NCBI RefSeq assembly: GCF_900104775.1 | Contig: NZ_FNSA01000003.1 | Coordinates: 1,550,001 to 1,614,000, forward strand | Reading direction: 5' to 3' | DNA from: Tsukamurella tyrosinosolvens | Lineage (GTDB): Bacteria > Actinomycetota > Actinomycetes > Mycobacteriales > Mycobacteriaceae | DNA: 64,000 nucleotides | Shown here: piece after piece, positions 48,540 through 53,499 of the stretch | Layout: each line of letters opens with the position of its first letter | How positions within the stretch are numbered: position 1 is the stretch's first letter | The notes under the pieces: generated by a model | Databases searched by the model: none | The model's input: only the letters and a program-made list of their open reading frames with translations | What the model was told of the DNA's origin: nothing | Program-made: the position numbers and the translations under genes

Positions 48540-48564
48540 CTGTTCATGGAACGTTCTGAGAACG
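48535..48564. promoter_or_regulatory. Palindromic operator region over the benE start
   Basis: Two inverted repeats: ACGTTC at 48535-48540 with GAACGT at 48549-48554, and the 13-bp CGTTCT-G-AGAACG at 48552-48564. They cover the -10 region and the first codons of benE. Likely sites for the XRE-cupin regulator. Confidence 0.6.
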
Positions 48565-49748
48565 GAACGATGGTGCCGGTCGGCGCCGGCATCGTGACCG
48601 CCCTGGTCGGATACACCTCCGCCTTCGCGGTCGTGCTCGCCGGGTTGCGGGCGATGGGCGCGAGCCCGGGCCAAGCGGCGTCGGGCCTCCTGGCCGTGAC
48701 GGTGACCATGGGCGCGGCGTCCGCGCTGCTCTCGTGGCGCTACCGGATGCCCATCATCAGCGCCTGGTCGACGCCGGGCGCGGCGCTGCTCGCCACGACC
48801 GGCGCCGTCGCGGGCGGCTGGCCGGCGGCCGTGGGGGCCTTCGTGGTGTGCGGCGTGTTGTTCGTGCTCACCGGGCTGTGGCCGGCGCTCGCGCGCTGGG
48901 TGCAACGGATCCCCACGCCGATCGCCCAGGCCATGCTTGCGGGCGTGCTGCTGCCGCTCTGCATCGCGCCGGTCACCTCGCTCGCGAAGCATCCGTGGGC
49001 GGTCGCACCGGTGCTGGTGGTGTGGCTGGTGCTGCTCAAGCTCCGCCCGCGGTGGGCGGTGCCGCTGGCCTTCGTGGCCGCGCTCGTCGTGATCGCCGTT
49101 GCCCTCGTGCGCGACGATGCCGTCCCCGCCGTTGCGGAGTTGGTGCCGCACGTCGAGTGGACCACCCCGTCGATCACGCTGCAGGCCCTCACCGGCGTGG
49201 TGCTGCCGCTCTACATCGTGACGATGGCCTCGCAGAACATCCCGGGTGCCGCTGTCCTCGCGAGCTACGGGTACTCAGTGCCGTGGCGGCCCTCGCTCGC
49301 GGTGACCGGCGTCGGCAGCGTCCTCGGTGCCCCGTTCGGCGGGCATGCGATCAACCTCGCCGCGATCAGCGCCGCGCTCGCCGCGGGACCCGATGCGGGT
49401 GAGGACCGCTCGCGGCGGTGGATCGCCGGAGTCTCCTCGGGTGCCGCGAATCTCGTTCTCGGCGTGCTGAGTACGGGCTTGACCGCCGTGGTGCTGGCCG
49501 CGCCGGAGGGAGTGATTCAGGCGGTGGCCGGCGTCGCGCTCGTGGGCGCCTTCGCCGCCGCGTGCGCCGGTGCCATGGCCGACGAGTCCGCGCGCGTGCC
49601 CGCGGCCGTCACGTTCATCGTCGCCGCATCGGGCACGACGGTGGCGGGCGTCGGCTCCGCCTTCTGGGCTCTGGTCGTCGGGATCGTCGTGAGCCTACTG
49701 TTGCGTCAGGATGGGCTCAGCGGAACGCGTGGCGCCACACAGAGCTGA
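48546..49748 (+). CDS. benE: Benzoate/H+ symporter BenE-like, with exchanged C-terminus
   Basis: 400 residues, BenE family with about 12 helices; imports aromatic acids such as benzoate. Seen: ISAWSTPGAALLA, PTPIAQAMLAGVLLPL, ASQNIPGAAVLASYGY and FGGHAINLAAISAAL. The last 21 residues from VVSLLLRQDG to the stop lie inside an inserted island: the 78 bp before them (49608-49685) are repeated exactly at 51722-51799, where the ancestral ending [13 protein letters not shown] remains. The symporter probably still works because the new end is hydrophobic and of similar length. No benzoate catabolic genes are nearby. Confidence 0.88.
   Translation: MERSENGTMVPVGAGIVTALVGYTSAFAVVLAGLRAMGASPGQAASGLLAVTVTMGAASALLSWRYRMPIISAWSTPGAALLATTGAVAGGWPAAVGAFVVCGVLFVLTGLWPALARWVQRIPTPIAQAMLAGVLLPLCIAPVTSLAKHPWAVAPVLVVWLVLLKLRPRWAVPLAFVAALVVIAVALVRDDAVPAVAELVPHVEWTTPSITLQALTGVVLPLYIVTMASQNIPGAAVLASYGYSVPWRPSLAVTGVGSVLGAPFGGHAINLAAISAALAAGPDAGEDRSRRWIAGVSSGAANLVLGVLSTGLTAVVLAAPEGVIQAVAGVALVGAFAAACAGAMADESARVPAAVTFIVAASGTTVAGVGSAFWALVVGIVVSLLLRQDGLSGTRGATQS
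49608..49685 (+). repeat. Left 78-bp direct repeat (att-like) in benE
   Basis: Identical over 78 bp to 51722-51799, in the same orientation; bounds the low-GC island. Upstream and downstream flanks diverge, as expected for attL and attR. Confidence 0.85.
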
Positions 49749-50238
49749 CGGCGTAGCCAATGCCGGAGCCTGGATGGCCGGCCCGAGACGTCGCCACGTC
49801 GGCGGCGAGCTGGCCGGTCCAGTCGCGTAGCTCCCCCGCTACCCAGCCGGGTTGTCGACCGGCCCGTACTTCGCCGAGAGCAACCCGAAAGAGGCCGGAC
49901 AGTCGCACGAAGCGGGCTTTGTGGTCTGGTTGGGAGTTGAGGTATGTGGCGCAGTCTGCCGCAAGCCGGTCGATGGCACCCTGAGCTTCACTCCACGTGC
50001 TGACGGTGCTAGCTGGTGCCGATCCGACTGCCAATTGGCCTTCGATCTGGGTCGACTTGACCCGTACCTCGGAGATCGATGTTGTGCACGTCTCTCGATC
50101 TTTCGATTCGTTCTGAGCCCCTGCAATATACACCGCTACGTAGAGCCCCAGTATTCCGACTGCGACACTCCAGCATATGCTTGCCAGCGTCCAGTCTTTG
50201 GGCGAACCTGCGGTGTCCTCAGAATCTTCCGCGCTCAT
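49717..50238 (-). CDS. Island protein 2: single-pass membrane protein, unknown
   Basis: 173 residues, not recognised. Short acidic N-terminus, one transmembrane helix (about 20-41, SICWSVAVGILGLYVAVYIAG), then a 130-residue region rich in helix with one Cys pair (ETCTTS, ADCATYL). Topology suggests the C-terminal part is outside the cytoplasm. ATG follows AAAAGGA. Its 3' end overlaps the altered benE end by 32 bp. It follows the larger island gene after 45 bp, so they form one operon. Confidence 0.7.
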   Translation of the reverse strand: MSAEDSEDTAGSPKDWTLASICWSVAVGILGLYVAVYIAGAQNESKDRETCTTSISEVRVKSTQIEGQLAVGSAPASTVSTWSEAQGAIDRLAADCATYLNSQPDHKARFVRLSGLFRVALGEVRAGRQPGWVAGELRDWTGQLAADVATSRAGHPGSGIGYAVSSVWRHAFR

Positions 50239-50283
50239 GACGATCCTTTTGGTCGCGGATGTGGTTGTGGTATCTGCTCACAG

Positions 50284-51468
50284 CTACTTTTCGCCCCCCT
50301 GGCAATGCGAGTCGTCTACAGCGATCAATATCTCGCTACGCTTGAGAGTGTCGGCCGAGCTAACTACTATTTTGCCACGCCTTTCTCTTGGCGAAGCTGC
50401 GCATGCGCGCCCCGAGTCTACGGTGCCACGGAGAGATATTGTATGAACCTCTCCACTTGGGATGTCGCCGAATCGGGTGTTGCTCGGAGTGCCAGAAAGG
50501 CGGCGGAGTTCTGTGTTCTTGCCAGCTGTTGCTTGAATCTCGTTGACGGCGTCCTCCGGATCGAATCCGGGTGGAAGTGTCGCAGAAATTCGCACGTCGT
50601 GTTCCGTAGTGTCGGTCCTATTCCAGATGGAAGTCCAAACTTCGAACGAGGATGCATCTTTCGGGATGGATAGATAGCCGACCATTGGATCGTCTCCCGT
50701 CCGTGCAAATACTTGCACGGGTACGGTCGCGGCGACCGCTCGAAATCGGAATCTTATGACACCTGTGCATCCTGGTCCGCTACGTAGCAACCCGGACCCG
50801 AAGTTGTCGCGACATCCGATCAGTACTCCGTCTCCAATGAGCTTCTCGAGATCGACCGGAATGGTTGGAAGTGATGAATCTTTGAACGCTGCGAAGGCTG
50901 AACCCTCGACGGGCTTAATGCTAAGTCGGGTATAGGACGCGACGCCGATCTGCGAGAAGACGTAGCCCGGTAGAACCGTAGGCGAGCTAAGGTGTGCGGA
51001 GATGGATTCGGCGCTGTCGACCGATTCGGGGAGGTTCACTCTTAGTACTGTGTCCGTGGGGACGGTTTGAGTATCGGATGTGTCGACGTTGTCGTTGTTG
51101 AAATTGACGGAGATTTGATACTCCGATCCTGATCGTAGAATCCGAGACGTGTCATAGTCCCTGGATTGTGCGTTGTCGATTCGACGAATCTGAACGAACC
51201 TGGTCTCGTCGTATTCTTCTGTCACACGCGAGTTGAGTACTGCGCGACCCGGCAGTGTTTCATCGTTGAACAATAGTCGGTTCGGTCCCCAGGTATCGAA
51301 TCGAGAGCCTGTGTCCACGGCGGATCGGTCGGCGCTGTTCGACTTCGCCTGCGTGCCGAGTGTGTCTGTAAGTGCGAGGACCGCGACTGTTAGTAGAACT
51401 ATCAAAGGGATCGCGTCGCGTCGGAGGTAGGTGATGGCGATCGCGTACAGTCTTAGGAGTCCATCCAT
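50284..51468 (-). CDS. Island protein 1: membrane-anchored extracytoplasmic protein, unknown
   Basis: 394 residues, not recognised. N-terminal transmembrane anchor (about 18-37, AIPLIVLLTVAVLALTDTLG), then an extracytoplasmic part of about 350 residues. The C-terminal 130 residues have the strand pattern of DUF11-like beta-sandwich domains: WTSIWNRTDTTEHDVRI, LPPGFDPED and FGDIPSGEVHTISLRG. Two Cys in CRDNFGSGLLRSGPGC may pair. Ser/Thr/Asn-rich, GC and codon use unlike the neighbours, consistent with transfer from a lower-GC host. First gene of the island operon. Confidence 0.7.
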   Translation of the reverse strand: MDGLLRLYAIAITYLRRDAIPLIVLLTVAVLALTDTLGTQAKSNSADRSAVDTGSRFDTWGPNRLLFNDETLPGRAVLNSRVTEEYDETRFVQIRRIDNAQSRDYDTSRILRSGSEYQISVNFNNDNVDTSDTQTVPTDTVLRVNLPESVDSAESISAHLSSPTVLPGYVFSQIGVASYTRLSIKPVEGSAFAAFKDSSLPTIPVDLEKLIGDGVLIGCRDNFGSGLLRSGPGCTGVIRFRFRAVAATVPVQVFARTGDDPMVGYLSIPKDASSFEVWTSIWNRTDTTEHDVRISATLPPGFDPEDAVNEIQATAGKNTELRRLSGTPSNTRFGDIPSGEVHTISLRGTVDSGRACAASPRERRGKIVVSSADTLKRSEILIAVDDSHCQGGEK

Positions 51469-51649
51469 CTGATTCTGTGCTTTCTTAAATCATGTTTGGC
51501 GGCTGCGAGATCTAACCAAGGGTGACTTGGCGCATTTGGTACTTCAAGGTACTCCGCCAACCATGCGCGAGTTGCCAAACAGTGTGAATCAAAGTTCGGC
51601 CACGCGGCAGCGTAAGGCAAACAAGTTGGTTGAGATTGCGACGGCTTTA

Positions 51650-51687
51650 GAACCTGCGACCCTTCGTTTTCGCAGCGAATGTGCGTG
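51650..51687 (-). pseudogene. tRNA-Pro-like relic at island edge
   Basis: 17 bp (51650-51666) are identical to the T-arm/anticodon-stem part of the tRNA-Pro gene at 53443-53459, followed by AGCGAATG shared with the same gene. The anticodon loop is replaced by unrelated bases, so it is not a functional tRNA. Looks like an attachment-site remnant. Confidence 0.55.
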
Positions 51688-51707
51688 TAGGTGACGCGTA
51701 AATCCTC

Positions 51708-51832
51708 GCGTGCCTGCCGTTGTCACGTTCATCGTCGCCGCATCGGGCACGACGGTGGCGGGCGTCGGCTCCGCCTTCTGGGCTCTGGTCGTCGGGATCC
51801 TCGTGTACGTGATCCTGGGAGTCCGCCGGTCC

Positions 51833-51844
<12 letters not shown>
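51708..51844 (+). pseudogene. Detached ancestral 3' end of benE
   Basis: In benE frame this reads RVPAVVTFIVAASGTT and on to a TGA at 51842-51844, ending [13 protein letters not shown]. The middle 78 bp equal 49608-49685; the first 15 bp differ from the left copy almost only at synonymous positions, apart from one Ala-to-Val change. It has no start codon of its own. Confidence 0.8.
51722..51799 (+). repeat. Right 78-bp direct repeat (att-like)
   Basis: Exact copy of 49608-49685. Marks the right end of the island. Confidence 0.85.
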
Positions 51845-53233
<1,389 letters not shown>

Positions 53234-53425
53234 GGCTGGTCCCTCCTGCGTCGGGATCGTCGCTGGTGCACGGGCTCGGGGCGCCGATGGACGGCGGGCG
53301 CATCATCGGCACGGCACCGCGCACGACGGATCGGGGTACGGCTGGTCGTCGGGCATATCGCCGCGGGCGGTCGAATCGTTACCGAACGCCGTCGGCGCGG
53401 ACGACTGCTGCATCCTCATTCTCTG

Positions 53426-53499
53426 TCGGGATGACAGGATTTGAACCTGCGACCCTTCGCTCCCAAAGCGAATGCGCTACCAAGCTGCGCCACATCCCG
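53426..53499 (-). tRNA. tRNA-Pro (anticodon UGG)
   Basis: On the minus strand, acceptor CGGGATG pairs with CATCCCG; the anticodon stem TTCGC/GCGAA encloses TTTGGGA (anticodon UGG), and the T-arm reads GGTTCAAATCC. CCA is not encoded. A relic of the same sequence lies 1.8 kb to the left at the island edge. Confidence 0.95.

Follow-up and report, generated by a model that had tools for sequence, protein, structure and literature searches.

Why does benE, the gene of a benzoate/H+ symporter family transporter, have two ends in Tsukamurella tyrosinosolvens, only one of which is joined to the gene? The question is raised by a window of 64,000 nucleotides (positions 1,550,001 to 1,614,000 of contig NZ_FNSA01000003.1, assembly GCF_900104775.1; coordinates below are those of the window), in which an exact direct repeat of 78/78 base pairs (bp), 49608-49685 and 51722-51799 (offset 2114), borders an island with a content of guanine plus cytosine (G+C) of 56.8%, against 71.5% for the window. 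In 300-bp steps the G+C is 0.52-0.64 within 49800-51749 and 0.69-0.80 outside, with intermediate values across the borders. Reading out of the left copy leads into the BenE tail VVSLLLRQDGLSGTRGATQS and then a stop codon, and reading out of the right copy leads into a 14-residue ending, again followed by a stop. The island is real and has clear borders. Its kind is known, integration at the 3' end of genes being familiar from phages and genomic islands, and its insertion furnished benE with a new last 20 residues. An earlier note on this DNA had reported the 78-bp recurrence and a low-G+C element of about 2 kilobases (kb) without an integrase, and all of this was borne out.

The direction of the exchange can be read from other genomes of the genus, T. 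tyrosinosolvens itself being represented by one strain or nearly so. The benE 3' region was searched in 15 of them and matched in all 15; its 3' end was readable in 14, G012 having given pieces only. In seven of the 14 (L006, L007, L009, L010, L011, L012 and L013), benE is directly followed by a pknB-type gene without an insert, which makes them empty sites at the level of the genus, whereas the earlier note had proposed sister strains for the comparison. In the other seven, pknB was found neither within the approximately 1.5 kb that was read nor beside benE in 16-17 kb; these relatives also lack the island proteins, yet they are not plain empty sites. Judged by eye, a tail like that behind the right copy is present in 12 of the 14 relatives (L008 and L019 deviate), and the present tail of the window in none, two partial likenesses being a tail that begins with VVS in L009 and GLSG in L019, where a DNA match reaches 49723. 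Thus, the end behind the right copy is of the ancestral type and that behind the left copy is the incoming one, as the note had proposed. When the flanks were joined in silico, the reading frame was preserved into the relatives' type of ending, the stop being read in a separate translation.

The similarity of the two copies extends somewhat beyond the exact block. The 15 bp upstream of it are identical at 11/15 positions (p = 0.0016 against an assumed background of 0.33; the measured background at offset 2114 is 0.30), the 9 bp downstream at 6/9 positions (p = 0.04), after which the likeness fades; a listing of repeat families gives the same pair 95% identity over 99 bp. Three codons are changed to the left of the block, two of them synonymously and one from GCC to GTT (Ala to Val), in keeping with the claim that the differences there are mostly synonymous. 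The contrast between the 78/78 block and the flanks, with seven mismatches in 24 positions, is significant (Fisher p = 1.9e-5), provided that the flanks are homologous. Since the block contains no mismatch and the 15 bp beside it contain four, the stand-in end is a mosaic. The proposal that it mimics the benE end of another species draws on these four mismatches and is tentative, and a donor of the new end was not found in the genomes searched.

The Pfam match to BenE stretches to residue 383. The foreign part starts at residue 381 of 400, and thus the conserved domain was kept and the tail was changed. The last 51 residues were compared with 397 genomes of the order, among which two genomes of the family align at 56% identity over residues 3-50 and 58% over residues 3-45, and the alignments of other genomes extend to 45-49 at lower identity. 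Because 31 of the 51 query residues precede the swap, these alignments suggest, rather than establish, that the present tail is a BenE tail from elsewhere.

The closest known arrangement is that of e14 in icd of Escherichia coli K-12, where, in the excerpts of PMC6379469 that describe it, the insertion point lies within the gene's 3' end, the element supplies a new end and the old end is left behind as a duplicate. The benE island resembles e14, as well as other phages that integrate into icd, in the position of the insertion within the 3' end of a protein gene, in a new end that came with the element and in the retention of the old end. As in an island of this type, the 3' end of the target gene is directly repeated at both borders, the replacement end appears to have been supplied by the element with the frame kept, and empty sites exist in relatives; an integrase gene beside the attachment (att) site was found neither in the list of open reading frames (ORFs) nor by a search of the genome. 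The two cases also differ in scale, e14 measuring 15.2 kb (according to the same excerpts of PMC6379469) and the benE island 2.0 kb without an integrase, and in outcome: in icd, 163 bp were displaced and the protein is nearly unchanged, whereas the new tail of BenE differs in both sequence and length. Likewise, the island resembles a cis-mobilizable element (CIME), defined in a passage of PMC5704250 as an element that has lost its integration and transfer genes and retained attL and attR, in that its ends are attL/attR-like and no integration or transfer genes were seen in the ORF list; unlike in that case, no related integrative and conjugative or integrative and mobilizable element with the same att was found.

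According to a passage of PMC10111431, integrating elements as a rule bring a replacement for the end of their target. This rule, together with the layout of e14 in icd (PMC6379469, as excerpted), favours site-specific integration. The benE-like stretch of the element corresponds to the gene's 3' end and brings an in-frame stop of its own, which is what an attP that repairs its target should look like. In one relative, an element that encodes an integrase occupies a neighbouring proline transfer RNA (tRNA-Pro) gene (G013, see below). We hold, with moderate confidence, that the locus arose by a Campbell-type integration at the 3' end of a protein gene, of an element that carried a replacement benE end and whose integrase was lost or never present. 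The element, in circular form, would have recombined with the chromosome once, somewhere in the final ~100 bp that it has in common with benE. This single crossover would have joined the gene to the stand-in end, retaining the conserved domain of BenE and exchanging its last residues, and would have pushed the native end 2.1 kb downstream. The agent would have been a site-specific, probably tyrosine, integrase, and what is seen today would be an element without its integrase, a cis-mobilizable-type or grounded island. Its small size and the lack of an integrase make it likely that the island is a remnant.

Several observations weigh against this reading. e14 encodes its integrase; in the benE island no integrase-like ORF was seen, either in the ORF list or in a scan of the cargo proteins, and none of the 14 tyrosine-recombinase and three resolvase matches of the genome lies within the window. 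An inverted-repeat core in the 78-bp block is not above chance, since 84% of 300 control segments score just as well, and the island ends contain no repeated 10-mer. Site-specific recombination alone exchanges only a short overlap, which 78 identical bp exceed, so that the stand-in end must in addition have been captured recently or been subject to gene conversion. No second benE end near the first was found among 120 other genomes of the family (best six candidates at most scored in each; up to 40 were scored per genome of the genus), no related att was found in viral contigs, and the matches in phage records all lie within whole transporter genes. A second benE-type att in the strain's own genome was likewise not found beyond short, weak matches, and no excised form of the island was found. 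Finally, in G358, a genome of the wider order from another family, the part of benE that encodes the last ~90 residues occurs a second time, 546 bp behind the full gene; this copy spans 325 bp, is 99.1% alike, reaches the contig end (L132 1-871, start of contig C2) and covers a span unlike the block of the window. It may be a tandem duplication, a contig-end effect or another insertion at benE, and it follows that a doubled benE end alone is no proof of an integrase. Of the site-specific recombination proposed in the earlier note, the insertion, the empty relatives and the exchanged end are thus well founded, while the recombinase lacks a gene, a related att and an inverted-repeat core; the suggested search for an integrase-bearing element with this att came up empty in the genomes, viral contigs and phage records searched.

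Some candidates for a related att were discarded. The match in phage record MT835574.1 is the end of a 391-amino-acid (aa) ORF that looks by eye like a whole BenE, on an unannotated contig marked 'unverified', and two matches in Acinetobacter phages coincide with genes whose annotation is benzoate transporter. At the places of short benE-like DNA matches in G001, G005 and G011, no BenE is seen at the protein level, and an apparently lone benE fragment in G310 proved to be a complete benE interrupted by an in-frame stop (L130, C2:67706-67822); in its genus, g2, most of the sampled genomes listed had no match.

Since neither an integrase nor a related att nor an excised form was found, the insertion may also have been mediated by RecA. 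Circular, non-replicating DNA, such as a piece of a plasmid or an excised island, which by chance carried a benE 3' fragment of ~150 bp, would have entered by a single homologous crossover without any integrase. This would agree with the lack of a recombinase in the island and the window, with the partial plasmid-borne relatives of the Amycolatopsis homologue of the long cargo protein, and with the long exact block between diverged flanks, which is the trace expected of conversion around a homologous crossover. A random piece of DNA would, however, hardly be so short, coincide with the 3' end of the gene and provide an in-frame replacement tail with a stop, all of which follows the rule of integrase targets. 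Because gene conversion is also expected from a RecA crossover, our confidence in site-specific integration stays moderate, and the RecA-dependent insertion is retained as a tentative, clearly less probable explanation.

It is unlikely that the interval between benE and tRNA-Pro was instead imported as linear DNA from a donor Tsukamurella, with the 78-bp repeat arising by later duplication or strand slippage. The interval is indeed variable in the genus, a degenerate tRNA-Pro-like piece lies near the right end of the island, and G358 demonstrates that a benE end can be found doubled in a genome of another family; yet the likeness to benE to the left of the right repeat stops after 15 bp, the cargo module was not found in any of the 15 other genomes of the genus, and the tRNA-like piece (35/45 bp) looks far older than the repeat (78/78). 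We consider it equally improbable that the island is a complete minimal mobile unit of ~2.1 kb, composed of a two-gene cargo and one benE-derived attachment site and moved in trans by a recombinase of the host or a helper, with the tail exchange in benE as its mark. A transposon with a target-site duplication does not fit, as the duplication is 78 bp long, its flanks are also related and no transposase-like ORF was seen in the island. An assembly artefact or a chance repeat is hardly credible, because 78 exact bp with ORF-consistent junctions are beyond chance and the record of strain NCTC13231 (NZ_LR134452.1) shows the identical arrangement, even if this sole other record is 100% identical to the window over 24.9 kb and hence represents the same strain or nearly so, not an independent one. 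This 386-kb T. tyrosinosolvens record is labelled plasmid 10, yet the window sits in a 4.9-Mb contig, and the record looks like a mislabelled piece of the chromosome.

The island carries two genes on the minus strand, the one for the 173-aa protein downstream of that for the 394-aa protein and overlapping the new benE tail head-on. Neither protein was found in the 15 other genomes of the genus. Of 396 other genomes of the order, five match the 394-aa protein, two of them weakly and partially (G280 and G341), and two match the 173-aa protein; a class-wide scan of 394 genomes, including the strain's own, with the family of the 394-aa protein gave four weak partial matches besides its own. In Amycolatopsis sacchari (L068) the long gene is followed by a relative of the short gene that was detected by the search (24% identity, E 8.7e-8). 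In Lentzea cavernae (L067) a short gene, which the search missed, lies beside the long homologue, and is probably related to the 173-aa gene, judging by where it lies, by its size and by an alignment at 17% identity; this pair adjoins IS21-type genes. No short partner was seen beside the long homologue of L069, and the long protein of L070 (273 aa) lacks the C-terminal part, its gene adjoining ORFs that by eye are relaxase- and helicase-like. The WGPxR motif is common to the five long proteins. L069 contains the stretch QINIVGDHVGDI, which resembles one of nucleoside triphosphatase (NTPase) conflict systems and may serve as a lead.

The Amycolatopsis long protein has partial matches on seven plasmid records, covering 36-42% of its length, and is the only one of the relatives to pass the cut-off in a domain search (DUF11 and a DUF11-type repeat); in one relative, a DUF11-type repeat is the counterpart, by alignment, of the C-terminal part of the 394-aa protein. 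The sole match of the 394-aa protein itself on plasmids is the record of its own strain, and searches of phages and of viral contigs yielded no relative. Neither cargo protein was matched by Pfam or NCBIfam; searches of PDB sequences gave nothing for a profile of the 394-aa protein, PADLOC nothing, and PHROGs nothing better than E 0.031 for the two. Rfam gave one match, at chance level and outside the island, and a scan for promoters and terminators gave a single promoter-like site, as expected by chance, and nothing resembling a terminator. The two genes thus form a membrane-protein module that has distant relatives on plasmids. A role as a carried gene pair for fitness or conflict would be a guess.

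The interval between benE and tRNA-Pro, which lies 1.7 kb from the end of the island, is variable across the genus. In G013, another Tsukamurella (L049 3500-14131), it contains integrase, AAA, terminase and capsid genes, with 25 bp of the tRNA-Pro 3' end at the far border, and this element appears prophage- or satellite-like. It shares its neighbourhood with the benE island and differs in targeting tRNA-Pro, in its gene content and in that the two cargo proteins were not found in G013. The degenerate tRNA-Pro-like stretch beside the right repeat has an alignment score of 25, compared with a maximum of 18 in 500 shuffles; among 49 other segments of the window, one scored 25 (its coordinates contain 51640-51684) and the others 15 at most. 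We do not call it an att, because it corresponds to tRNA positions 23-67 and leaves out the 3' end, the part that the G013 element has at its border. Further insertions may have left traces between pknB and tRNA-Pro in L053 (6178-6804) and L054 (11832-12150), where overlapping alignments share about 20 and 48 bp, respectively, at the 3' end of tRNA-Pro; a search for short matches, however, gave only 14 bp in the former and nothing in the latter. In G001, another Tsukamurella (L044 11000-12700), benE ends in yet another tail, RGLLQPRRPRDQ, and pknB is missing from the interval up to tRNA-Pro; here the gene's end may have been exchanged independently.

Table 1. Features of the benE locus in window coordinates
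Feature	Position	Strand	Basis
benE in its present form (400 aa, C-terminal 20 residues exchanged), transporter of the benzoate/H+ symporter family	48546..49748	+	Pfam BenE 2.1e-93, residues 11-383; annotated BenE in NZ_LR134452.1
Native benE side of left repeat, outside exact block	49593..49607	+	11/15 bp common with 51707-51721
Left copy of 78-bp exact repeat (attL-like)	49608..49685	+	exact match
New, element-derived benE ending (VVSLLLRQDGLSGTRGATQS, stop)	49686..49748	+	in 0/14 relatives
Inserted island between exact blocks, 2,036 bp, 56.8% G+C	49686..51721	.	repeat bounds and composition
Second gene of the pair, 173-aa product with a single N-terminal membrane helix (by eye)	49717..50238	-	ORF, alignments
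Long gene of the pair, 394-aa product with a single N-terminal membrane helix (by eye) and a conserved WGPxR motif	50284..51468	-	ORF, alignments, searches
Degenerate tRNA-Pro-like stretch, 35/45 bp, tRNA positions 23-67, beside right repeat	51640..51684	-	alignment score 25
Element side of right repeat, diverged benE-like 15 bp	51707..51721	+	alignment of copies
Right copy of 78-bp exact repeat (attR-like)	51722..51799	+	exact match
Displaced ancestral benE 3' end (14 residues, stop), convergent with pknB	51800..51844	+	translation, comparison with relatives
pknB-type Ser/Thr kinase gene, native benE neighbour	51833..53233	-	Pfam Pkinase 1.7e-46; directly downstream of benE in 7/14 relatives
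tRNA-Pro(TGG), integration site of another element in genus	53425..53499	-	genome comparison; G013 element

A literature search on benE as an integration target in Tsukamurella, judged by title, found nothing among the papers listed. The locus thus places on record benE as an integration target in this clinical actinobacterium, and it brings to attention a two-gene membrane module with distant plasmid-borne relatives. If the island were mobile in trans, it would, to our knowledge, rank among the smallest integrase-free islands.

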